Positions 11,057 through 59,520 of a stretch of DNA of 64,000 bases are shown one piece after another. Origin of the DNA: Chloroflexota bacterium (GTDB lineage Bacteria; Chloroflexota; UBA11872; VXOZ01); assembly GCA_026710945.1 (NCBI GenBank), contig JAPOQA010000054.1, forward strand, positions 124,001 through 188,000, read 5' to 3'. The notes below the pieces were generated by a model that was given only the letters and a program-made list of their open reading frames with translations, made no database searches and had not been told where the DNA came from. Every line of letters starts with the position of its first letter. Within the stretch, counting starts at the first letter, position 1. The position numbers were made by a program, and so were the translations under genes.

Positions 11057-12952
11057 CTACGTCACCGCATCCTCAATCCAGACGGGGCTCGACCACGCCG
11101 CATTGCCGTCCCTCTGAATGACACGTACGTAGTAATAGCATGGCGCCCCCGGTGAGCGATCTCGCCACGTGAACTCGCAAGCTGTGCCTTCACCGGTGAT
11201 GGAATAGACCTCTTGGCCGTCGCGGATGATGTCAACGCGGGCAATCTCGTCCGTGCCAATCACCGCAACCGTTAGCGAGAATGCTGTGGCCAATGCCGTG
11301 GTGCTGCCCATGCACGCGCCATTGACGGCAACGTCGAGCAGGATGTGTTGGCCGGTTGTGGCATATGTGCGGCGGGCAAGCATAGCTTCCCACAATGATT
11401 CACGTGTGCACTCGCTTGCCAGCACCGCGGTCAGACCGCCTACCGGCCTTAAGCGGAAGTTGATGCCACCCATGGTATCCATACTCGAGCCCGGATGGCC
11501 GCGGTGGTTGTCGGTGCCGCCGACAAAGCCGAGGCGCAGCCCTTTCGCCAGTGCGCTGCGCGCCGACGACCCATTGCCGCCCAAAACTACTGGCGCACCC
11601 ACTTCTTCAACCTCGAACGAGCCGCGCAATTGGCATATCTCAACGTGCAGTTGAAACTCCGGGTGGTGCACGTCCCAGTCTGTCGGCTGCCAGCGGCCGA
11701 AGGTCGTCCCGCCTTCCGAGTGCGTGTTCGGATGGTGCGGTATGACCAGTGCGCGACCGGGCGGCAGTTGGTCCCATAGTTCGTTCGGATCATCGGGTGT
11801 GGGACAGGGCCTGTCGTCGTCTAGATAGTAGACGTTGCGGTGTCCGTGGGACCCGGCCCTACTGTACTCATAGGCAAGAAACGTCGCAAATTCACCGGGC
11901 ACGTAGTACTCCCTGGCGCATTGCTTGCTGCGCTCCCAGTCCTTGCCGCCCTCATGGTCGGTAATCGCCACGAAGTCCAACCCGCTGATATGCCGTGCGT
12001 ACCAGTAGGCGTCGTCAATGTCGCGCACGCCGTCTCCGGAGAGGTTGGTGTGATTGTGAATGTCACCCCAATAGATGTTGTATCCGGCCGGACGAAAGTG
12101 GGGAGCTACCGGCCAGCTCTTGCCGATGATGCCGCTGGCTTCGTCCCGTGCCCGCACAAGATAGACTCCATCCCGCGCCGGGACGTTAATGCTTGCGTCC
12201 GCTAGTCCCCGTTCTTTTGTTGTCGCATCCGCTTCAGCTTCCAACTTGCCGTCACTGCCGCCGACGGTCTCAAGCTTGAGCGCCCCCTGAAAACTATCGC
12301 ACACGTTGCCAAATGCGTCCCTGGCATGGACAAAGACCTGCGCTGGACCCTCGCCTGCCTCAAACTGCGGCACCACCAGGCCGAGCGCCGCCGGCGCAGC
12401 GGGCACGACATCTATTGCCGGTTGCCGCCGGAGTGAAAAGTGGCGGCCACCGCCACGCACCGGGTAATCCGGATTGCTATAGTCGGTGTTTCCTTCTATA
12501 TCCACTCCCACTTCAAAGAACGTGTCTACGCTGACGATGTCTTGCGCCTGTGCCGGTTGACGAAAGCCGGACACGTAGCTGCCCGCATGACCCAAGGTGA
12601 CGGTGAGCGTGTCCCCGCCGCGCAACGGCTTACCTTGGAGCACGGCATAGATTACGGGATACTGGGAGTGGTGATAGGAAAGCGGATGGCCGTTTACGAC
12701 GTTTACTTGCACGCTTGTGCCGGGAACATCCGTAGTTGCAACCACACTACCTACGTCCCACCGCTGTTTCTCGCGGTGCGGCGGGGCAATCCGCACGCCG
12801 CCGCCGATGGCAATGCCCTGCGCGCCAACGGTCACGACGATATCCCACGTGCCGTACTGACCAACCGTGACGGGGCCAGCCGGATCAATGTGCACGGTGT
12901 AGTCAGCCGGCGCTAGTCCGGCGGCCTGTTCATGAATGGAGTCTGATTGCAC
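11057..12952 (-). CDS. PHP-domain metallo-hydrolase, DUF3604-like (first copy)
   Basis: A 631-residue protein with GTG start at 12952. The first 270 residues look like all-beta domains, including a segment typical of Ig-like inserts (PAQVFVHARDAFGNVCDSF). A PHP-type metal site follows: WGDIHNHTNLSGDG at about 295, then DFVAITDHEG, VIPHHPNT and GGTDNHRGHPGS. The last 100 residues form another beta-rich domain ending in WSSPVWI. PHP/DUF3604 proteins are inferred metal-dependent phospho- or other ester hydrolases; the substrate is unknown. No signal peptide is visible, so it is probably cytosolic. It is a clear paralogue of the gene at 15234-17216 and is separated from it by a CocE-type hydrolase, all three co-directional. 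Confidence 0.8.
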   Translation of the reverse strand: MQSDSIHEQAAGLAPADYTVHIDPAGPVTVGQYGTWDIVVTVGAQGIAIGGGVRIAPPHREKQRWDVGSVVATTDVPGTSVQVNVVNGHPLSYHHSQYPVIYAVLQGKPLRGGDTLTVTLGHAGSYVSGFRQPAQAQDIVSVDTFFEVGVDIEGNTDYSNPDYPVRGGGRHFSLRRQPAIDVVPAAPAALGLVVPQFEAGEGPAQVFVHARDAFGNVCDSFQGALKLETVGGSDGKLEAEADATTKERGLADASINVPARDGVYLVRARDEASGIIGKSWPVAPHFRPAGYNIYWGDIHNHTNLSGDGVRDIDDAYWYARHISGLDFVAITDHEGGKDWERSKQCAREYYVPGEFATFLAYEYSRAGSHGHRNVYYLDDDRPCPTPDDPNELWDQLPPGRALVIPHHPNTHSEGGTTFGRWQPTDWDVHHPEFQLHVEICQLRGSFEVEEVGAPVVLGGNGSSARSALAKGLRLGFVGGTDNHRGHPGSSMDTMGGINFRLRPVGGLTAVLASECTRESLWEAMLARRTYATTGQHILLDVAVNGACMGSTTALATAFSLTVAVIGTDEIARVDIIRDGQEVYSITGEGTACEFTWRDRSPGAPCYYYVRVIQRDGNAAWSSPVWIEDAVT

Positions 12953-13158
12953 TGAATCACTCTCTTCATTGTTGCAGTACTAGTCTCAACTGTTCAGGTC
13001 GATCTCGCTCTCTCTATGCGGCGGCCAATACGCACTCTTCACTACTGTTCCACCAAGAATGCAGGCGCGCCACTCGGCAACACACCGGTTAGTAGCACCA
13101 GTCTCAGTGCTTTCAAAGCCCGGAGGCATTTCCCCACATGGTTGTTTGCGCGATTGGC

Positions 13159-15048
13159 TTACTCGGGATCTTCACACCTGGGAATTACTGGCAACACGAT
13201 GTGCGAGGGGCGCCCCGGCTCGTGGAAGACTGTGTTATGCGCCTCTTCCAGCCGCGTGTGGCGGCCCAGTGGTTCCCCGGTGTTGGGATTCACGTCGAAG
13301 CGCGGGAAGTTACTGCTGGAGACATCCAGCCGGATGCGATGGCCCTGCGCAAAGACATTGCTGGTGGGATACATCTCGATGGCAATCGCCGTCGGCACGT
13401 TTGGCTCAAGCATTTCTGCCTGTTCCCGGCTATTGCGGTAGCGGGCACGCTGAATGCTGTCCGTGATATTCATGGCAAAGCCCTGGGGGTAGTCGCCATT
13501 GGGCGGATGCACATCGAGCAGCTTGACCGTAAAGTCGGTATCCACGGCGGTAGATTTGATCCAGAGTTTCACCGTGAGCGGGCCGGTCACCTCTATGTCT
13601 TCTTCAAGCGGCGGGGTCTGGAAAACCAGAACGTCAGGCCGGGCCGCGAGCGGCAGATTGCCGGTGTACCCGAAAAAGCGCTCGTCGCCGCGCTGGTCGT
13701 AAGCGCCCGCAACAAGGACTGGATCACCCGCCGAGAGGTTGCCGCCGATGGTTGGAACGGGATTGGCCGGGTCGAACGTAAATGAACTCTGCCTCTGCTG
13801 CTTGGTCGGCGAGGGTGTATCTAAGCTCAGACCGCCATCGGCGTGCAAGTAGTAAGGAGTCCACGCGGTGCGCGCGAGCGGCCACTCGTCTTCCGCGCGC
13901 CAGTATCCGCCGTGATCGAGGCGGCCGTCGCTGTTGCGCGTGCCGCTGCCGCCGCCCATGACGAAGATTTGCACCGGCTTGGTTTGCCCCACGCCGGTCT
14001 CTTTTCCCTTGAGCCAGTAGTCGTACCAATGCAGCCGCAGTTCGTTCATGTCGTAAATGGCGGCATCGCGGCCAAAGTCGACGTCACCTGCGTGGGAGAC
14101 CTCGGCGCTGCCGGTGCCGTGGGTGAAGGGGCCCATGATGAGCGTCTGCGGCGATTCTTTGCGCTCGCTGAGCTCGACATAATTCGTGCAGGTGGAACGG
14201 GCGTAGGAGTCATACCAGCCGCCGAAGTAGACTGTCGGCACGTCGGCGTGTTCATCGTAGAAGAGCTCCGGGCCGTAGCCGGGACGGCGCCAGTATTCGT
14301 CCAGATCGCCGTGGGTGAGCACGTCAAGGTGCCACTGTTCGTAGCTGGGCAGCTCGGCGAGGGGCGATACGCCCTTCTTTAGGGGCGCATTTTCCACCCA
14401 CTGCGCCACGTTGGCGAAGGCGCTATCCAGGCTCTGGCGCAGGCGCGGGTCGCTGAGCGCCTCTTTGCTGGTGGTCGCCATGCGGAAGGCATAGATCATG
14501 AAGCGCATTTCGCAGGCGCCATTGTGCCGCATGGAAGCGGTGTGGTAGTTCCACGGCCCTTCCTCCACGAACATGCCGGCCAGGCCGGGCGGGTTGAGCG
14601 ACGCGAGGGCGCTCTGCGTGCACCCAGCGTAGCTGCAACCCGTGGTGGCAATCTTGCCGTTCGACCAGGGCTGCTCTACGATCCAGGCGCAGGTGTCGTA
14701 GCCGTCCGGCCCTTCGTCGCCAAAGGCGTACCACTCGCCCTCAGACGTAAACCGCCCCCGCACGTCCTGGATCACCACCACGTACCCCCGCCGCGCGTAG
14801 TAATGCCCCTTCCGCCGCAATCCAAGTCCCGTCTTGTCATACGGCGTGCGTTCGAGAATGACAGGGAATTCCCCTTCATCTGCCGCCAACCCCTTTTGGG
14901 TTAGACCGACATTCCCTTGACCGCCAACCGCCGGCAGTGCCGGACGATACACGTCAGTGCCCAGTTTGACGCCGTCTCTGGCGGTCATCATCACATTCTT
15001 CTCTACCACTATGCCGTAAAGTTGCGATGAACCTCGGTTAACGGTCAC
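13159..15048 (-). CDS. CocE/NonD-family alpha/beta hydrolase (peptidase S15-like)
   Basis: A 629-residue hydrolase of the X-Pro dipeptidyl-peptidase/cocaine esterase superfamily. The alpha/beta fold starts with MMTARDGVKLGTDVYRP; RTPYDKT and VVIQDVRGRF follow. The nucleophile elbow GCSYAGCTQ (Ser) is at about residue 138, the catalytic Asp is likely near ADVPTVYFGGWYD, and GPFTHG carries the probable His region. The C-terminal jelly-roll (DTDFTVKLLDVHPPNG, HRIRLDVSSSNFPRFD) is complete. GTG 15048 has AGAGG 8-9 bases upstream. Family members cleave amide, ester or acyl bonds. Its place between two DUF3604-like genes suggests one joint pathway. Confidence 0.9.
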   Translation of the reverse strand: MTVNRGSSQLYGIVVEKNVMMTARDGVKLGTDVYRPALPAVGGQGNVGLTQKGLAADEGEFPVILERTPYDKTGLGLRRKGHYYARRGYVVVIQDVRGRFTSEGEWYAFGDEGPDGYDTCAWIVEQPWSNGKIATTGCSYAGCTQSALASLNPPGLAGMFVEEGPWNYHTASMRHNGACEMRFMIYAFRMATTSKEALSDPRLRQSLDSAFANVAQWVENAPLKKGVSPLAELPSYEQWHLDVLTHGDLDEYWRRPGYGPELFYDEHADVPTVYFGGWYDSYARSTCTNYVELSERKESPQTLIMGPFTHGTGSAEVSHAGDVDFGRDAAIYDMNELRLHWYDYWLKGKETGVGQTKPVQIFVMGGGSGTRNSDGRLDHGGYWRAEDEWPLARTAWTPYYLHADGGLSLDTPSPTKQQRQSSFTFDPANPVPTIGGNLSAGDPVLVAGAYDQRGDERFFGYTGNLPLAARPDVLVFQTPPLEEDIEVTGPLTVKLWIKSTAVDTDFTVKLLDVHPPNGDYPQGFAMNITDSIQRARYRNSREQAEMLEPNVPTAIAIEMYPTSNVFAQGHRIRLDVSSSNFPRFDVNPNTGEPLGRHTRLEEAHNTVFHEPGRPSHIVLPVIPRCEDPE

Positions 15049-15233
15049 GTCAGTACCTCTTTCTCACTATTCAGTCAATTGGCCCATGCTGCCCAGACTT
15101 CGCGTAATAATCCTTGGTCTACAGTGTGCCAGAATCCAGAAGAGGTGGTCTAAGAAGTAAAGCTAAACTGACCCTTAATCCGGCTGTCGGCTCCAATTCA
15201 CGAAACCCTCTGTCCCTAGATGGGTTCTTCCCC

Positions 15234-17216
15234 TTAGACTCTCGTCACCCATACGGGACTGCTCCAGGCTTGGGCGACGCGGCCGTGGACGAGGTCGCGT
15301 TGGCGAACACGGACGTAGTAAATGGCGTGGGAAGGTGGTGCCTCGTCGATCCAGTCGAGGCTGAAGTCGAGCGGCGCGCTGCTGCCGGGGAACCACTCTT
15401 GATGGACGACGGAGAAGCCTGCCTCCGGTCGGTCGAGGTCGGCGCGCAGAACGTGAATCCAGCGCAAGGGGCCGGTGCCGAGCGCCTCTACATACACGTT
15501 CAATGTCTGACCGGCAGCAATACTCGTCTCACCTCCCATCGGTTCGCCGTTCACCGTAAACTCTAGGTAGATGCGGGAACCGGTGGTGCCGTAGGTTTGG
15601 CGATTGCGAATGGCGTCAAATACCGCCTCGCGGGTGAGTTCCGGCGCCCATACTGCCATGGTGCCAAAGCCCTCCATGCCGGGTTGTGCGCCGTGATTGT
15701 CTGACGAGCCGATAACCCCCAGCTTCAACCCTGCCAGCCAGGCATCCACGGTATAGTTGCCGGGATCCCCCGGGCCGTTAAAGGTGAAGTCGGAAACGTC
15801 CATGGAGATGGGGTGGTCCGGCGCGTACTCTTCGCTGAGGCCGTGGGAGGAATAGATTTCGATGGTGGAGCGAAAGCGGGGGTCATCGATGCTCCAATCA
15901 TGTTTCACGCCGCTACCGGGCCGGGCGAAGCCGCCGGTATGGTGGGGGATGGTGAACATTTTCCCTTCCAGGTTTTCGCGCTCGCCTCGTTGCCATATCT
16001 CTTCCAGGTTCTCTTCGTCGTTGTAACGAAGCGGGCTTTCGCCGCCGCGATAGTAGACATTGTGGTGACCGTAGGGCGCGCCGAAACTCGCTTCGTAGCC
16101 CAAGATCGTGACGAACGCGCCAGGCTCGTTCCACTTCTCTGTGTATGCAACATTCATCTGCCAGTCGTCCTGGCTCATGCTGCGCCGGTCGTTGTGGTCG
16201 GTAGCGCAGTAGATGTCGAGCAGAGAGACGTAGCGCGCGTAGCGAAAGTGGTCGTCGCGGGTGCCCGTGCCGTCCCAAGAATACTGGCTATGGGAGTGAA
16301 TGTCTCCCCAATAGAGACCGCCCACAGGCGTCCCATCCGCCTCGGCTGCAACCGCAACGACTTTGCTAGGATTGGAAAGGCCGTAGAGTATCCCGTCATT
16401 GGAGGTCCCACGTAGGCGCAAAACGCCTTCTGCCGTGGGCGTAATCTCAAGCTCCCGGCAGCCCCACGTTGTGTTGTTGCTCAGCTTGATGGGATTCGAT
16501 GGGAGCGTGGCCGCGCCGGTCTCGACGACAAGATAGATAGCGGTTTCCGGCGCCGGGACCGGATTGTGGAATTCGTCCAGCGCCACCATGCGTACGCGGG
16601 CCGGTCTGCCCACGACCGCCCGGGACTCGAGCACAATGAAGAGCTCCACCGGTGGACCGGGCTCATTGCTGAGCAGCGGCAAGGCGGGATCCGGCAAGAG
16701 CGCGAATTCTCCGTCTCCTGCCGTGTCAACCGCCGCGCGCACGCGCTCCGGTGAACCGGTCCACAAGGGCGGCGTGAAGCCGCGGCCGCCTTGGCTCATG
16801 TCGCCGTACACAACGTTGATGGTATCGCCGGCGCACAGCGTGCCTTCCGATACTGTCACCTGCACCGTCCACGAGTAGCGACTGCCGGGCGGATAGCCCA
16901 CATTGCGGCGGTACGCTTTTGCGAATTCACCATCGGTTGCATCCAGTACCTCGTAGCGCAGGCGCACGCCGGGCCGGTCGGTATGCGCCGTTACATAGAA
17001 CGGCGCGGTGGGGTCCACGCTTTGCAGGCGGCGGCCGGAGTTGCGCCACCATTGGTGCCAGCGTTCCGGCAGCGCCACCTGCAATCCACCGCCCGCGGCA
17101 ACGCCGTCTTTGCCTACCACATACGTTACAATCCACGTACCCCAAGTTCCCGCACGGCCGTGGTTCGGCGCGATAGATACGGTACCGAGTTCTTGACAGT
17201 CTTCAGAGGATGCCAT
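15234..17216 (-). CDS. PHP-domain metallo-hydrolase, DUF3604-like (second copy)
   Basis: A 660-residue paralogue of the 11057-12952 product with ATG at 17216. It has the same plan: N-terminal beta region of about 300 residues with Ig-like motif PARVRMVALDEFHNPVP, PHP motif WGDIHSHSQYSWDG at about 310, CATDHND, TIPHHTGG, GSSDNHGAQPG, and a C-terminal beta domain ending AWSSPVWV. The two copies share motifs but have clearly diverged, so this is an old duplication and not a recent repeat. The position upstream of the CocE-type hydrolase suggests this copy is first in the transcript. Substrate unknown. Confidence 0.8.
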   Translation of the reverse strand: MASSEDCQELGTVSIAPNHGRAGTWGTWIVTYVVGKDGVAAGGGLQVALPERWHQWWRNSGRRLQSVDPTAPFYVTAHTDRPGVRLRYEVLDATDGEFAKAYRRNVGYPPGSRYSWTVQVTVSEGTLCAGDTINVVYGDMSQGGRGFTPPLWTGSPERVRAAVDTAGDGEFALLPDPALPLLSNEPGPPVELFIVLESRAVVGRPARVRMVALDEFHNPVPAPETAIYLVVETGAATLPSNPIKLSNNTTWGCRELEITPTAEGVLRLRGTSNDGILYGLSNPSKVVAVAAEADGTPVGGLYWGDIHSHSQYSWDGTGTRDDHFRYARYVSLLDIYCATDHNDRRSMSQDDWQMNVAYTEKWNEPGAFVTILGYEASFGAPYGHHNVYYRGGESPLRYNDEENLEEIWQRGERENLEGKMFTIPHHTGGFARPGSGVKHDWSIDDPRFRSTIEIYSSHGLSEEYAPDHPISMDVSDFTFNGPGDPGNYTVDAWLAGLKLGVIGSSDNHGAQPGMEGFGTMAVWAPELTREAVFDAIRNRQTYGTTGSRIYLEFTVNGEPMGGETSIAAGQTLNVYVEALGTGPLRWIHVLRADLDRPEAGFSVVHQEWFPGSSAPLDFSLDWIDEAPPSHAIYYVRVRQRDLVHGRVAQAWSSPVWVTRV

Positions 17217-49664: not shown

Positions 49665-51023
49665 CTATGAATCACCAGGCCAGTGGCGCAGGTCAACCCG
49701 CGCACTCTCCGTGCCCAATGCCGCCAGTTCTTGCAGGTACCGCTCGTGGAGCCGTTGCGCCACGTCCGGATGGTCCGCGATCACGTTGTGCTCCTCGCCG
49801 GGGTCCGCTGCCAGATTGTAGAGTTCAGCAGCTTCCAAGCCGCGCTTGCCCGGGTCCATGAGCGTCCATTCGCCGTCGTTGACGGTGCTGTAGAGCAACA
49901 CGTCCTCTTGTGTGGGCAAGAGCGGTGAGCTGATGACGGCGTCGCGGTGGGCATCGGTCTCACCGCGCAGCAGCGGCGCGAGCGACCGGCCGTGGAGTCC
50001 GTCCGGCGCCGGCGCGCCGATCAACTCTAAGACAGTTGGCGTTACGTCAATGGCTTGTACGAGCGCGTTCGTCCGCCGCGGCGCCATGCCCGGCACGTGG
50101 GCGAGCAGAGGCACGCGGGACACCTCACGGTACATCGGCCAGCCTTGCTTTGGTTCCAGAACGGTATGCTTGCCGATGTAGCCGTGCTCACCGATGTAGA
50201 AGCCGTGGTCCGCGTTGAAGACGATGATGGTGTCGTCCCAGAGGTCCAGGTGCTTGACCCGCTCGATGAAGTGGCCGAACCACGTATCCACCAGCGAGAC
50301 TGAACCGGCATACAGCGCGCGGGCGTGCCGTAGCTCCGGCTCCGTCAGATAGTCGCAACGGTCGTAGCGCGGCCAGAAGATCTTCTCCCCCTCGTAGCCG
50401 GGATCGTACATGTCCGTGTAGTGCTGGGGCGGGTCCCATGGCTCGTGCGGCGTGAAGGTGTCGACATAGAGGAAGAATTTCTCGTGGGTGTAGTTGCGCT
50501 CGAGCCAGTCAGCAGCTTGCGCAAAAGTCTGCGCCACAAAGTGTTCACGCTCGTGGGTGCGGTAGTAGACGTTCTTGAGGTAGCGAATTGCCGCTTCGGG
50601 CATGCGGATCTTCTCCGGCGCGCAGGGTAGTTCTACCGGCACGGGATCGGTGACGTACGGCTCGCCGGCTTGGCCCCGCACAGCTTGCCAGCCGTCAAAA
50701 CCGGCGTGAAAGTTCATGCCCGGGCGGAAGAGCTGCACGTGATCGACCACCATCTGATTGACATAGCCATCACGCCCGAGAATTGTGGCCAGCGTGTCTT
50801 CCCCTTGCGCTAGAGGCGCCCAGCCCCGGGTATGGTAGACATAGTGGCTTGCGAGCAGGTCAGTGCGATGGGGCACGGTGGGAAACGAGCCCACGTAGCA
50901 ATTGTCGAAGCTGACACTCTCTGCGGCAAAAGCGTCGAGATACGGTGTGCGAATGTCCGGATTGCCGTTCGCGCCAATGTGGTCGTAGCGAAACGTATCG
51001 GAGACGATATAGATGATGTTCAT
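49665..51023 (-). CDS. Sulfatase-fold hydrolase with Thr at the nucleophile site
   Basis: A 452-residue alkaline-phosphatase/sulfatase-superfamily protein. Metal and fold motifs are IIYIVSDTFRYDH at the N-terminus, ADHGFYIGEHG (about 280) and GKHTVLEP. The signature that holds formylglycine, [CS]-x-P-x-R, reads TVPHR (in GSFPTVPHRTD), so the modified Cys/Ser is replaced by Thr. Sulfatase activity through formylglycine is therefore unlikely; Thr-nucleophile phosphodiesterases of this superfamily exist. No signal peptide is seen. ATG 51023 has only a distant AGGAGG. It is divergent from the isomerase operon. Confidence 0.85.
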   Translation of the reverse strand: MNIIYIVSDTFRYDHIGANGNPDIRTPYLDAFAAESVSFDNCYVGSFPTVPHRTDLLASHYVYHTRGWAPLAQGEDTLATILGRDGYVNQMVVDHVQLFRPGMNFHAGFDGWQAVRGQAGEPYVTDPVPVELPCAPEKIRMPEAAIRYLKNVYYRTHEREHFVAQTFAQAADWLERNYTHEKFFLYVDTFTPHEPWDPPQHYTDMYDPGYEGEKIFWPRYDRCDYLTEPELRHARALYAGSVSLVDTWFGHFIERVKHLDLWDDTIIVFNADHGFYIGEHGYIGKHTVLEPKQGWPMYREVSRVPLLAHVPGMAPRRTNALVQAIDVTPTVLELIGAPAPDGLHGRSLAPLLRGETDAHRDAVISSPLLPTQEDVLLYSTVNDGEWTLMDPGKRGLEAAELYNLAADPGEEHNVIADHPDVAQRLHERYLQELAALGTESARVDLRHWPGDS

Positions 51024-51277: not shown

Positions 51278-52156
51278 ATGGCTGAGATACAGGTTGGCAT
51301 ACAAGCGAACGCGTGGCTCCGCGAGTTTCCAATTGCGGAGAATCTCGATACCGTTCTGCAGCAAATTGCGGAATCTGGCTATAGCGGTGTGGAGATTGGC
51401 TATCATTTCTTGGCCGGAGGCCGGTTCAACGCCTTGCGTCCCGGCGGCGCGCCGACGGCCGGCGACAGCGAAACTACCACCATGCCCGATCCGGCGGAGG
51501 TAGGCGCGCTTATTGCCGAACACGGTCTGACTTTGGCGGCGTTGCATACCGGCGGCGTCTTCTATGCGGACGACGTTGCCAGCGAGCAAACGTTACCCAA
51601 TTTGCAGATCATTGCCACGTTTGCCCAAGCCATCGGCTGCGGTACCGTCTTGATCAGCCCGGCGGCAAAGAAGGACGAGTCGAAGACGGATGAGGAACTT
51701 GCCACCCAGAACACGTACCTGCAGCAAGCGTGCGCGCTCTTCAACGACCATGGCGCACACTGCTTCCATCATACCCACGGGCCAGAATTGGAAGACGAAT
51801 TCCGTGAAATGCGCCGCATTCTCGAGCTTGATCCTGGGTATATCAGCTTGGCTTACGACATTGCCAATGCCGCGCGCGTTATCGGCACGGCTGACGCAGT
51901 AAGCTTCATTGACTCGTTTCGCTCCCGCATCGGGTACGTGCATTACAAGGACTGCCGGCCCGACGGCGTGCTCGTGGAGGCAATCGGAGACGGCGCTATC
52001 GACTGGCATGCCGTAGCCGGATCGCTCAGGAGTTCGGACTACAGCGGCTGGGTGGTGGTCGAAATTGAGCCAGGTCATGGCATGGAAGCCCATCGCTCGG
52101 TTAAGGAAGATGCCGTCTTGAGCCGCCAGTGTATTCGTGAAACTCTCGGTGTGTAG
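51278..52156 (+). CDS. Sugar-phosphate isomerase/epimerase-like TIM barrel (xylose-isomerase-like)
   Basis: A 292-residue AP-endonuclease-2/IolE-type barrel. It starts VGIQANAWLREFP; metal-site segments are HHTHGPELED and AYDIANAARV, with GYVHYKDCRPDG and VVVEIEPGH following. Family members act on inosose, hydroxypyruvate, tagatose or fructose-6-phosphate-type substrates, with a metal bound by Glu/Asp/His. It is the first gene of a three-gene operon with an amidohydrolase (14 bases on) and a ComA-like protein. The reaction cannot be told from sequence. Confidence 0.82.
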   Translation: MAEIQVGIQANAWLREFPIAENLDTVLQQIAESGYSGVEIGYHFLAGGRFNALRPGGAPTAGDSETTTMPDPAEVGALIAEHGLTLAALHTGGVFYADDVASEQTLPNLQIIATFAQAIGCGTVLISPAAKKDESKTDEELATQNTYLQQACALFNDHGAHCFHHTHGPELEDEFREMRRILELDPGYISLAYDIANAARVIGTADAVSFIDSFRSRIGYVHYKDCRPDGVLVEAIGDGAIDWHAVAGSLRSSDYSGWVVVEIEPGHGMEAHRSVKEDAVLSRQCIRETLGV

Positions 52157-52170
52157 CAGGGGACACCGCA

Positions 52171-52992
52171 ATGGCGTACCGACGTTTCATCGATGCCCAC
52201 GTCCACTATCCGCAGACGGCCTTCGATCCGACGGGTTCGCAAGTTCCTATTGAACGCCAGCTCGATGATCTTCTCAGCATGGAGCGCGCGCTTGGCTGCC
52301 AGCGGCTATGTTTGCTTTCCACCGGCGATCCGCCCGTACATGATGCTGTAGCGAGACTCATCAAAGACCAACCCGACTTAATCACAGGTTTTGGCTATAT
52401 TCGCCTTGGGGTCGATGAACCGACCATTGTCGATGAGCTTGGCGACATGGGATTTCGCGGCCTCAAGACGATTCGCCCCTTGGAAAACTACGACAGTAAG
52501 TCGTATTATCCGCTCTACGAGCGGGCGGAAGCCCGCAATATGCCAATTCTCTTTCACACGGGGCAGCTTTTTCGCGCTCCTGGCAGCGGGTCGCGGGCAG
52601 AAGACGTGAGCACCGCGCGCATGATGCCCTGGATGCTCGATCCGATTGCGCGGGCGTTTCCGAAGCTCACGCTCATTGGAGCGCATCTTGGCTCACCCTC
52701 ATTTGCTGAAGCCGCGTGGGTAGCCCGTTGGAATGAGAACGTCTACTGGGACCTCAGCGGGCCGATCACTATTCGCTACGGCAATCGCAAAGTCGTGCAC
52801 GAGATGATGTACAACGCGGTGGCTGGCGCAGGGATTACCCACAAGCTGGTGTTCGGCTCCGATGTAACGGCACCGGAGATTCCAGACGTTGTCACCGCTT
52901 ACGATGCGTTCTTAGACCGCCTCGGCGCGGATTCGCTGGACAAAGACCAGGTGTACTATGGCAACATGGCCCGCATTCTTGGCATTCTCTAG
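52171..52992 (+). CDS. Amidohydrolase-family metal-dependent hydrolase (Amidohydro_2 type)
   Basis: A 273-residue TIM-barrel hydrolase. The metal start is FIDAHVHYP (residues 6-14); FHTGQ, LIGAHLGSP and VFGSDVT carry the later metal residues in the expected order. Members of this group decarboxylate or hydrolyse small carbonyl compounds (for example ACMSD-type, 4-oxalomesaconate or lactone hydrolases). ATG 52171 follows the preceding gene closely and ends 11 bases before the ComA-like gene. Confidence 0.85.
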   Translation: MAYRRFIDAHVHYPQTAFDPTGSQVPIERQLDDLLSMERALGCQRLCLLSTGDPPVHDAVARLIKDQPDLITGFGYIRLGVDEPTIVDELGDMGFRGLKTIRPLENYDSKSYYPLYERAEARNMPILFHTGQLFRAPGSGSRAEDVSTARMMPWMLDPIARAFPKLTLIGAHLGSPSFAEAAWVARWNENVYWDLSGPITIRYGNRKVVHEMMYNAVAGAGITHKLVFGSDVTAPEIPDVVTAYDAFLDRLGADSLDKDQVYYGNMARILGIL

Positions 52993-53003
52993 GCAATACT
53001 GCA

Positions 53004-53828
53004 ATGTCTGAATACGCTTTTTCCGCAATCCCCATGCTGGAGCGTCCCGCTAAGCCGCGGACGTCCGGTCAAACAATGATGATTGACTTTGGCCTCGGGC
53101 TTAGCCAGCAGGAGGACATCCTTCGGCTCGCGAGCGCATATATCGATTCCGCCAAACTTGCCGTGGGTGTGGCGCGATTGTTGCCGCGTGAGTTGGTAAT
53201 GCAAAAGATCAGCCTCTACCAGCAGTTTGACGTGGCGCCCTATCCTGGCGGGCAGTTCCTCGAGTACGCCGTGCTCTGTGGGAAGGTGGACGAGTATTTT
53301 GGAGAAACACGAGCGATCGGATTCCATGCCGTTGAGGTCTCTGACAACTTACTCTCAATTTCCCTGGACGAAAAGAAGGCGCTAATCGCCAAGGCGCGAG
53401 CGACGTACGGCCTCGAAGTCTATGGCGAAGTGGGTAAGAAAGAGGGATTGGCCGTCACGGTAAGCCTCGAAGAGGACATTGCGGCGTGCCTGGAGGCCGG
53501 CAGCAGCAAGGTGCTTGTGGAGGCGGCGGAAATATTCGGCCATGGGCGAGACAAGTCCTTGGCCGCACAACTCACAAAGGCGGCGCCGCTCGAGAAGCTC
53601 ATGTTCGAGCTTACGGGCCCGTGGATTGAAGGCACCACCTACTCAGAGCCGGATACCCTGGCCCGCTGGCTCATGCAGACTCTTGGCCCCAACGTAAACA
53701 TTGGCAATGTCTTGCCGGATAGCTTGCTCCGCATTGAAACCGCCCGCAGAGGCTTGGGCGTCAATGCGGGCGGGGAACTTCCCAGTGGGCTCATGCGCGA
53801 TGAAGGCATGGAGGGAAGCTGTGGATGA
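53004..53828 (+). CDS. ComA-like (phosphosulfolactate synthase family) protein with altered motifs
   Basis: A 274-residue homologue of (2R)-phospho-3-sulfolactate synthase, which adds sulfite to phosphoenolpyruvate in coenzyme M or sulfolactate synthesis. The barrel order matches ComA: GQTMMIDFGLGL, AYIDSAKLAVG, APYPGGQFLEYA, GFHAVEVSDNLLSISL, YGEVGKK, VLVEAAEIFG and NIGNVLPDSLLRIETARRGL. Two conserved ComA spots differ: DKG is DFG here, and GTS after KxxxG is GVA. So PEP/sulfite chemistry cannot be assumed; a related enolate-type substrate is possible. It ends the isomerase-amidohydrolase operon. Confidence 0.78.
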   Translation: MSEYAFSAIPMLERPAKPRTSGQTMMIDFGLGLSQQEDILRLASAYIDSAKLAVGVARLLPRELVMQKISLYQQFDVAPYPGGQFLEYAVLCGKVDEYFGETRAIGFHAVEVSDNLLSISLDEKKALIAKARATYGLEVYGEVGKKEGLAVTVSLEEDIAACLEAGSSKVLVEAAEIFGHGRDKSLAAQLTKAAPLEKLMFELTGPWIEGTTYSEPDTLARWLMQTLGPNVNIGNVLPDSLLRIETARRGLGVNAGGELPSGLMRDEGMEGSCG

Positions 53829-56619: not shown

Positions 56620-56701
56620 TTTTGCACCCTTCTCCTGGCATGACTTGCATGTATGAACTCACTGCATCATGATAGCGAATAGTAACGAGAGGGAGCAGCA
56701 A

Positions 56702-58063
56702 ATGCAGAATTGGCTGACGCGGGAGGACGAGGTGCTGCCAGAACGTGCCCCGCTGTGGGCGGGAGCGGCCAAAACGCAGATCACACCGGCAATTGGAGGC
56801 TTGCTCCAAAGCGGCATGACGGTGATATCAACGGGTGTGCTTGACGACCTCTATAGCACCGCCGTCGTTTTGGACGATGGATCGACAAAAGTTGCGCTGG
56901 TCGGCAATGACCTCATTTACATGGAAGCCTCGCTGGCCTCCGCGATACGGGCGCGCATTGCCAAACAGACCGACATCCCCGGTGATAACGTCCTGCTGAA
57001 TGCTTCCCACACGCATTCCGGCCCCAGCATCTCTGTGCTTTCGCCGGACCCCGTGGACTTGGAATACCGTGAGTGGGTCATCCAGCGCATCACCGATACC
57101 GTGGCGCGTGCTAATGCAGCTCTTGAGCCAGCCTCGCTTGCCATTGGTGAGGCGGAGGGCTTGTTTGCCATCAATCGCAGGAAAGTAGTGGATGGCACCT
57201 CGAGCATGCTGCCCAACTATGAGGATACGGTGGATAACCGCGCGCGAGTCATACGCGTCGATCGCCTGGACGGCTCGGCGCTCGCTATCGTCTTTTCGGC
57301 GGCTTGTCACGGCACGGGCTTTGACTATCGCGGTAATCCCGTAATTGGGGGTGATTACATTTCGCCGGCCAAAGACGAGATTGAGCGCTCATTTGCAACG
57401 GAGGGCGCGCCGATTGCGGTCTTTCTGACCGGCTGTGGCGGTAACATCCGTCCAAGAGTGCTGACACCGGCAGGCGATCGCTTTCATCCCTGCACGGCGG
57501 CGGAGATCCAGGCGCTCGGCCGCGGCGCCGGCGCTGTGGCGGTACGCGCGGCGCGCGAGAGCCATATGGCCGTGGGTTATCCCATCGCCGTCGCCAGAGA
57601 GCAACTCCCGCTCCCCTTCCAAGATCCCCCCACAATAGAGGAGCTCAAGTTGTATCGCACGGAATCCGGCCGCAATCGCTGGCTCACGTGGGCAGACTAC
57701 CTCATCGAGAAGCTGGAGAACGGCGAGAAACTTCCCACAACAGTAGATATGGAAGTCCAAGTTGTGAGGCTCGGCGGTGTTTGCATCGTCGCCATGGGTG
57801 GTGAGGTGTTTGTGGAAATCGGGCTGGCAATCGAGCGGGCGCTGCAGGACAGCCACCGGGCGCAGATGGCGCTCACCCTCGGCTACAGCAACTCGGAAGT
57901 AGGCTACGTCTGCACTGCCAAGTCCTATCCTGAAGGCGGCTCCGAACCGGCTGACTTTTACCGCTGGTTCTGGTATCCGGCGCCGTTCCGGCCGGAGACC
58001 GAGCAATTCGTGGTGAGTCGCGCCTTGGCTCTCGCAGAGCAGGTTTCTCAACCGGCAGACTAG
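56702..58063 (+). CDS. Neutral-ceramidase-fold protein without the catalytic Ser (copy 1)
   Basis: A 453-residue protein of the neutral/alkaline non-lysosomal ceramidase N-domain family. It has WAGAAKTQITPAIGG at the start, the zinc-site segments NASHTHSGPS and SAACHGTGFD, and LTGCGGNIRPRV where true ceramidases have the GDVSPN hexapeptide with nucleophile Ser. Here that residue is Arg. It has no signal peptide and lacks the C-terminal Ig-like domain of secreted ceramidases. ATG 56702 is chosen for its GAGGGAG site; 56669 has none. Probably a cytosolic metal-dependent hydrolase of unknown substrate, paired with the next gene. Confidence 0.82.
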   Translation: MQNWLTREDEVLPERAPLWAGAAKTQITPAIGGLLQSGMTVISTGVLDDLYSTAVVLDDGSTKVALVGNDLIYMEASLASAIRARIAKQTDIPGDNVLLNASHTHSGPSISVLSPDPVDLEYREWVIQRITDTVARANAALEPASLAIGEAEGLFAINRRKVVDGTSSMLPNYEDTVDNRARVIRVDRLDGSALAIVFSAACHGTGFDYRGNPVIGGDYISPAKDEIERSFATEGAPIAVFLTGCGGNIRPRVLTPAGDRFHPCTAAEIQALGRGAGAVAVRAARESHMAVGYPIAVAREQLPLPFQDPPTIEELKLYRTESGRNRWLTWADYLIEKLENGEKLPTTVDMEVQVVRLGGVCIVAMGGEVFVEIGLAIERALQDSHRAQMALTLGYSNSEVGYVCTAKSYPEGGSEPADFYRWFWYPAPFRPETEQFVVSRALALAEQVSQPAD

Positions 58064-58119
58064 ATTTCGCAATTCACTGATTCCACCGATATTCCGCACT
58101 AGAGAAGCAAGAAAGGCAG

Positions 58120-59520
58120 ATGATGTCCGGTAGCGTCCGCATGGGTGCGGCGAAAGTAAACATAACTCCGCCGGTGGGTACGCATCTCGGCGGCTATGGC
58201 AATCGCCAGCAGCCTTCTGATGACATTCACGACGAACTCTACGCCGCTGCCTATGTATTTGACGATGGAGATACCACTGTTGCCGTTGTTGGCGCCGATC
58301 TCGTTGACATTTCTTTGGAGCGCACGCACGCTATTCGCAGGAAAATCACGGCGGCGACAGGGATACCGGGCTCCCACGTCATGCTGGGCATGACCCATGC
58401 CCACAGCGGCCCCAACACGAAAGATTGGGGCGCGGGGCTGCCGGGCGCCAGCGTACCGTATCCGGGTGGTATTCCCGATGAGGAACTGACGTACGCGCTG
58501 CCGATCCTCGACCACGACTACCTGACCGAGCTGGAGAACAAGCTCGCGGGCGTCGTAGCCATGGCGATGCAAGGGTTTCAGAACGTGCACGGTGGCATTG
58601 GCACTGGGCAGTACGGTCTCGCCATCAACCGACGCGGCGAGCGCAACGGTGAAGTGGTCAATTGTCCCCGCCCCGACGGCCTCGTGGACCATTCGCTGCC
58701 GGTATTGCGCTTTGATAACGATGCCGGCGAACCGGCAGGCATCATCTTCAATTACGCTTGCCATCCCACGAGCATGAGCGACAACTTTGCCATCAGCGCC
58801 GACTATCCCGGCCCAGCGCGGTCGTTTGTGGAGGATGTATACGGCAATGATTGCGTAGTAGGTTTTCTCCTCGGCTGCCATGGTGACATTCGACCCAATT
58901 ACACCGACGAAACCGGCCGCAGCTTCCGCTCAGCGATATTTCCCGAACTCGAACGGGAAGGCCGCATCATGGGCGCGGAAGTGATAAAAACACGCGAACG
59001 CATCAGCCCGCGCTCCTTAGAGGGTGTGGCCGCAGCCAGCACATCCATCGTTGCTCCGTTCGCCGAGCCGCCTACCGCCGAATACCTGCGCGAGGCACTT
59101 GAAACAGGTGCGTTTCCTGACACTGGGAGACGCCTCCCCTTCTGCAAAGCGCGGTGGGCGCAGCGCATTCTCCGTCAGCTTGAAGCCGGTACGCTGGCCG
59201 ACGGCTTGGAGACCGAACTCCAGGTTATTCGCGTGGGACACCTGGTGTTCGTCGGCTTTCCTGGGGAATTCTTCCTGGAATACGGCATGGAAACGCGAAG
59301 GCGGGTGAAGGAAGAATTCGGCCTCGATGTAGTCCACGTGAGCATGGCGAATGACATGATCGGCTACGTTGCGTCGGACCGAGAAATCCCACGCGGCGGC
59401 TACGAAGTCGGCTCCTACCAGGATGACGAGCTCGCTCCGGCCCATTACCGCACAGGTACCCAGGGCCTCTTTGTTGGCCGAGCGCTTGAACTCGTGAGCT
59501 CGATATTGCCAGGCGCTTAG
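58120..59520 (+). CDS. Neutral-ceramidase-fold protein without the catalytic Ser (copy 2)
   Basis: A 466-residue paralogue 56 bases downstream of copy 1. It begins RMGAAKVNITPPVGTHLGGY; the zinc segments are GMTHAHSGP and YACHPTSM; the hexapeptide region reads GCHGDIRPNY, so Asp and the PN ending are kept but Ser is again Arg. No signal peptide is seen. ATG 58120 is followed by another ATG at 58123; GAAAGG precedes both. The two copies share little beyond the motifs, so the duplication is old and each may have its own substrate. Confidence 0.82.
   Translation: MMSGSVRMGAAKVNITPPVGTHLGGYGNRQQPSDDIHDELYAAAYVFDDGDTTVAVVGADLVDISLERTHAIRRKITAATGIPGSHVMLGMTHAHSGPNTKDWGAGLPGASVPYPGGIPDEELTYALPILDHDYLTELENKLAGVVAMAMQGFQNVHGGIGTGQYGLAINRRGERNGEVVNCPRPDGLVDHSLPVLRFDNDAGEPAGIIFNYACHPTSMSDNFAISADYPGPARSFVEDVYGNDCVVGFLLGCHGDIRPNYTDETGRSFRSAIFPELEREGRIMGAEVIKTRERISPRSLEGVAAASTSIVAPFAEPPTAEYLREALETGAFPDTGRRLPFCKARWAQRILRQLEAGTLADGLETELQVIRVGHLVFVGFPGEFFLEYGMETRRRVKEEFGLDVVHVSMANDMIGYVASDREIPRGGYEVGSYQDDELAPAHYRTGTQGLFVGRALELVSSILPGA

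Follow-up and report, generated by a model that had tools for sequence, protein, structure and literature searches.

The window, a stretch of 64,000 nucleotides from a sponge-type Chloroflexota genome, carries three co-directional open reading frames (ORFs) separated by gaps of 14 and 11 bases (Table 1), as the sequence-only reading had described. Its assignment of these genes to an IolE-like barrel, an Amidohydro_2 hydrolase and a ComA homologue also stood, all three proteins scoring above the Pfam cut-offs (e.g., gathering scores of 26.4 bits for the hydrolase and 25.2 bits for the ComA homologue). The translation of the hydrolase displays an HxH, H, H, D pattern, and a phmmer search with it against the PDB returned no useful relative. 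Among congeners, identity was 80-87% for the barrel and 88-93% for the amidohydrolase, the G088 counterpart of which is 63% identical. With dN of about 0.04-0.14 versus dS above 1 between congeners, the operon genes are under strong purifying selection. The operon was kept in the congeners G001, G002, and G003, and G004 was consistent with it, though contig ends split the operon there; at locus L027, the first gap is longer. A viral scan revealed no relatives. The third gene belongs to a clade of the ComA superfamily that is here named type B.

Table 1. Genes of the operon, motifs of the ComA-like protein and the divergent neighbouring gene (positions in the window)
Feature	Position	Strand	Basis
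Sulfatase-superfamily hydrolase, divergent from operon	49665..51023	-	PF00884, 149.5 bits
IolE-like xylose-isomerase-type TIM barrel (AP_endonuc_2), operon gene 1	51278..52156	+	PF01261, 78.8 bits
Amidohydro_2 metal-dependent hydrolase, operon gene 2	52171..52992	+	PF04909, 71.3 bits
ComA-superfamily protein, type B (DFG/GVA/PGGQ/SDNL/EVGKKE/EAAE/FEL), operon gene 3	53004..53828	+	PF02679, 192.3 bits
DFG, residues 28-30 (ComA: DKG), C-terminal end of strand 1	53085..53093	+	Alignment, AF2 model
GVA, residues 55-57 (ComA: GTS), after strand 2	53166..53174	+	Alignment, residue contrast, AF2 model
EVSDNL, residues 111-116 (ComA: EISDGS), after strand 4	53334..53351	+	Alignment, residue contrast
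EVGKKE, residues 142-147, after strand 5	53427..53444	+	Residue contrast; K146 = M. jannaschii K137, kept
EAAEI, residues 173-177 (ComA: E[AG]RES), after strand 6, R170 lost	53520..53534	+	Alignment, residue contrast

ComA is phosphosulfolactate synthase (EC 4.4.1.19), which starts coenzyme M synthesis by adding sulfite to PEP, and ComB, its partner phosphatase, is the next enzyme of the pathway. The window protein matched PF02679 over residues 13-251, and its score of 171.1 bits against TIGR03849 (phosphosulfolactate synthase) fell below the cut-off of 280, which belongs to an archaeal equivalog model and under which real bacterial ComA may also fall. The top PDB matches of its AF2 model (pLDDT 86.7, pTM 0.85) were 1qwg (TM 0.78/0.85), 1u83, and a ComA-based design, pointing to a predicted barrel of the ComA type. 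The lower matches were mixed, including many generic barrels and, frequently, class II aldolases, KDO8P synthase, and sialic-acid lyases, with pyruvate- and PEP-using aldolases and synthases among them. The motif changes noted previously (DKG to DFG and GTS to GVA, with PGG, EVSD, and EVGKK kept) were borne out by alignment with 1qwg and with the second ComA of the same genome, in which the window motifs align with DKG, GTS, PGG, EISD, and EVGKK (PGG at residues 81-83, EVSD at 111-114, and EVGKK at 142-146 of the window protein). K51, the equivalent of Methanocaldococcus jannaschii K43, lies ahead of GVA and was kept in all rows. Moreover, three substitutions had been missed, namely PGGT to PGGQ, SDGT to SDNL, and EARES to EAAEI (T76 to Q, G107-S108 to NL, and R170 to A in M. 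jannaschii numbering), such that GVA, GGQ, SDNL, and EAAEI stand in place of the canonical set GT(S/T), GGT, S(D/N)G(T/S), and E(A/G)RES. The value of DKG as a key ComA marker was weakened, as YitD of Bacillus subtilis (1u83) has DNG and the Lys of DKG is thus not obligatory by itself.

A second PF02679 protein of the same genome (G000:C20:86392-87108), 36-38% identical to the window protein, scored 312 bits compared with 192 for the latter and carries the full set of canonical motifs (DKG, GTS, PGGT, SDGT, EVGKK, and EARES). Since a canonical ComA is encoded elsewhere in the genome, the window gene is a divergent paralogue and not the ComA of this organism. The canonical copy was present in all five congeners searched and the window type in four of them, the fifth (69% completeness) having the canonical copy only. 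In addition, of the 12 carrier genomes tested for ComB (PF04029), 11 lacked it; only G145 had it, a genome with ten PF02679 matches, canonical ones included. No ComB was detected in G000 or its five congeners, a weak test given that the canonical paralogue occurs there without ComB too. At the canonical ComA locus of one congener (L022:4109-7017), likewise without ComB, the adjoining gene encodes a LarA-type lactate racemase and is split into Lar_N and LarA_C around an ORF resembling a transposase. In G145 (Chloroflexota; loci L123-L128 and L104), several of the ten matches lie on one contig, and several are strongly divergent from canonical and type-B proteins alike.

When 84,980 genome species were scanned using an alignment of close relatives, 40 loci emerged, distributed over Chloroflexota, Gemmatimonadota, Latescibacterota, Planctomycetota, Acidobacteriota, Verrucomicrobiota, Pseudomonadota, a SAR324 bin, and others; an Actinomycetota plasmid added one further phylum, and type B was found in at least eight phyla. 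In a maximum-likelihood tree of 82 proteins, type B (98/95), including the window protein, was separate from the canonical clade (99/96) that holds M. jannaschii ComA and YitD; the root between the two clades was weak, and some long branches (L141, L136, and L130) may be misplaced. Other PF02679 branches were present besides these two. One of them (L201, L202, and L121, from Alphaproteobacteria) has the motifs KxxIGA, FxAGD, and SSAQ and adjoins several MmgE/PrpD-like genes and an ornithine cyclodeaminase-family gene. In the literature searched, which left most subscription journals outside its scope, no description of the type-B clade, its motifs, or its context was found; the superfamily and fold are known, and the clade represents a possible new activity. 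In the NCBI-style annotation of plasmid records, two type-B members are labelled phosphosulfolactate synthase. This label, the fold, the identity to the canonical paralogue, and the dispensable Lys of DKG in YitD would agree with an ordinary synthase whose motifs have drifted, but such an explanation is very unlikely considering that the substitutions are fixed across phyla, that a canonical copy coexists while ComB is missing, and that the TIGR03849 score is below the cut-off.

The neighbourhoods of the type-B loci were also compared, and beyond the genus the IolE-like and Amidohydro_2 genes were not adjacent to type-B genes. As a wider signature, the three-gene order accordingly failed and was rejected, being restricted to the genus, where it was seen in the four genomes with sufficient sequence, in one of which contig ends interrupt it. 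Since no type-B gene outside this genus has these partners beside it, they may be uninformative about the general reaction of the clade.

To contrast the active sites, 18 canonical and 39 type-B sequences were compared in M. jannaschii numbering. Invariant in both groups were K43, E79, E103, S105, E133, G135, K137, E168, E205, N227, and R240, which likely form the catalytic core. Replaced in type B were T48 (by Ile, Val, Leu, or Met), T76 (mostly by Gln), G107 (by Asn), S/T108 (mostly by Leu, Val, or Ile), R170 (mostly by Ala or Tyr), S172 (by hydrophobic residues), Q212, and R244 (mostly by Gly), and the glycine-rich loop after strand 6 was not conserved. This contrast of the GVA/GGQ/SDNL/EAAEI type was fixed across all 39 type-B rows, and in the AF2 model most of the contrast positions map to the C-terminal ends of the barrel strands or beyond them. 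From their chemistry, the lost residues are those expected to hold phosphate and sulfite. The retention of the core together with the loss of these phosphate- and sulfite-type residues suggests that type B probably catalyzes a different, breakdown-type reaction. Plant HSA32, whose part in heat-stress memory is known, is a ComA homologue for which a structural or regulatory rather than catalytic role has been proposed. A similar role for the window protein is extremely unlikely, because the charged core does not vary across the type-B rows and because type-B genes are located in operons of enzymes and transporters.

Neighbouring genes point to catabolism, in agreement with the breakdown context that the sequence-only reading had suggested. 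The divergent sulfatase-superfamily gene was kept beside the operon in congeners whose contigs cover that side. Type I sulfatases have a Cys or Ser in C/S-x-P-x-R, and the sulfatase Cys is converted to formylglycine; the window gene has Thr at this position (TVPHR), as do its congeners (TV/TIPHR), whereas Cys occurred in all other adjacent sulfatases compared. The window gene was therefore rejected as an ordinary sulfatase, and judging by this residue it is probably not one. Across type B, sulfatase-superfamily genes were located within 2.5 kb in 6 of 17 lineages versus 1.14 expected from per-genome counts (P about 4e-4, uncorrected, the enrichment having been noticed before the test). One more type-B gene with a sulfatase neighbour was found later in G565, and sulfatases are numerous in many type-B carriers.

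A DUF3604 gene stands next to the type-B gene in Planctomycetota, Rhodospirillaceae, Rhodobacteraceae, and G787, cases that are spread over three separate parts of the type-B clade, and in four alphaproteobacterial genomes (G055, G056, G061, and G787) the sole DUF3604 match of the genome is the one adjoining the type-B gene. DUF3604 is likely to be a pathway partner of type B; it is mentioned once, in passing, in the literature searched, and its predicted structure is weak over the catalytic region (pLDDT 65.7). CocE/S15 hydrolase genes adjoin type B in Gemmatimonadota, Arthrobacter, and G787, an adjacency that can be taken only as suggestive because several of these genomes carry many S15 genes. 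Within the window, a CocE/S15 hydrolase gene (13162-15063) lies between two DUF3604 genes at 11336-16208, about 37 kb from the operon, and the genome has 27 DUF3604 matches. Downstream of the operon, two tandem Ceramidase_alk-family proteins with about 30% mutual identity are encoded at 56669-59520; relatives of these proteins occur close to an IolE-like gene in G088 (L170) and, in L043, close to a type-B gene. On an Arthrobacter plasmid (L166:9944-13118), trxB, trxA, a hypothetical gene, and a gene for a UGSC-family protein come after the type-B gene. NMT1-type ABC transporter genes are found in the type-B operon of Paraburkholderia, Arthrobacter, and G116, and TctC-type receptors near type-B genes in L051, L052, and L196. 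Hydrolases and small-anion importers recur beside type B, and overall its neighbours vary widely.

As for the substrate, the sequence-only reading had tentatively named a sulfonate or an unusual sugar acid. An organosulfur compound would fit the sulfatase-superfamily and SsuA/NMT1-type neighbours, a fit limited by the Thr at the formylglycine position of the window's own gene. Type B could be pictured as a C-S lyase that runs the ComA chemistry in reverse without phosphate: sulfite would be split off sulfolactate or a related beta-sulfo acid, and the resulting enol would turn into pyruvate. The kept core, the loss of phosphate-type residues, the SsuA/NMT1-type transporters in the Paraburkholderia and Arthrobacter operons, and the sulfatase-superfamily neighbours are in line with such an enzyme. 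It is nevertheless unlikely, as the lost Thr and Arg residues would also be candidates for holding a sulfonate, the NMT1- and TctC-type transporters carry many non-sulfonates, and the annotated neighbours included no identified sulfite oxidase or sulfite exporter. Sulfonate cleavage is thus regarded as possible and is not favoured.

Taken together, the reading of type B as catalyzing a different reaction draws on the residue contrast, the separate clade, the canonical paralogue, the absence of ComB, the hydrolase and importer neighbours, and purifying selection. In this respect the original suggestion of a related but different reaction appears to be the better reading, now resting on changes that are constant throughout a clade of many phyla distinct from canonical ComA. 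It is tentatively proposed that the window protein, a member of a multi-phylum branch of the ComA superfamily, acts in catabolic operons as a lyase or aldolase that forms an enolate from an unphosphorylated acid, a proposal that is credible, if somewhat short of probable. Such an enzyme would depend on a metal and make or use the enolate of a 2-oxo or 2-hydroxy acid that bears no phosphate; it would work as a lyase or retro-aldolase instead of joining sulfite to PEP, and its partners would release or import the acid. In this genus, the amidohydrolase (perhaps a lactonase) and the IolE-like isomerase or dehydratase would act before it, in a pathway for the breakdown of a small sugar-acid-like or organosulfur compound. 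The position of the gene after an isomerase-type barrel and a hydrolase, along with retained Lys and Glu residues at the strand ends that suit proton transfer, could also speak for an isomerase or epimerase that works via an enediolate and breaks no heavy-atom bond. This is improbable, since the context has no specific epimerase signature and the characterized relative ComA forms a bond to PEP; preference goes to a lyase or retro-aldolase over an isomerase, on evidence that does not separate them.

A wider claim would make type B a new class of ComA-fold enzymes (e.g., a retro-aldolase or desulfonating lyase) working alongside hydrolases of the DUF3604 and sulfatase-superfamily types. Their pathway, widespread among bacteria and undescribed, would handle an abundant acid of marine or sponge origin. 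This claim is rather doubtful. If it were true, many annotations as phosphosulfolactate synthase would be wrong. ComA serves as a genome marker for coenzyme M or sulfolactate synthesis, and a multi-phylum sister clade that has a re-tooled pocket but bears the synthase label would make such inferences wrong. Type B also offers a concrete candidate for a new activity of an enolate-handling fold.

Among known systems, IolE (myo-inosose-2 dehydratase; TIGR04379) is the counterpart of the first gene, the nearest PDB relative of which is the IolE structure 3cny. The two have a similar barrel and share the HH, YD, VH-KD, and VE-E stretches, but the 77.5 bits of the window protein lie below the IolE cut-off of 290, and the neighbourhood has no other identified iol genes. 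With ComA of M. jannaschii (1qwg), type B shares the barrel and K43, E79, E103, S105, E133, K137, E168, E205, N227, and R240, whereas T48, T76, G107, S108, R170, S172, and R244 are replaced, conservation of the glycine-rich loop after strand 6 is lost, ComB is missing, and the operon context is another one. YitD of B. subtilis (1u83) resembles type B in family and fold and is also without the Lys of DKG, but it differs in keeping GTS, GGT, SNGT, and EARES and in grouping with canonical ComA.
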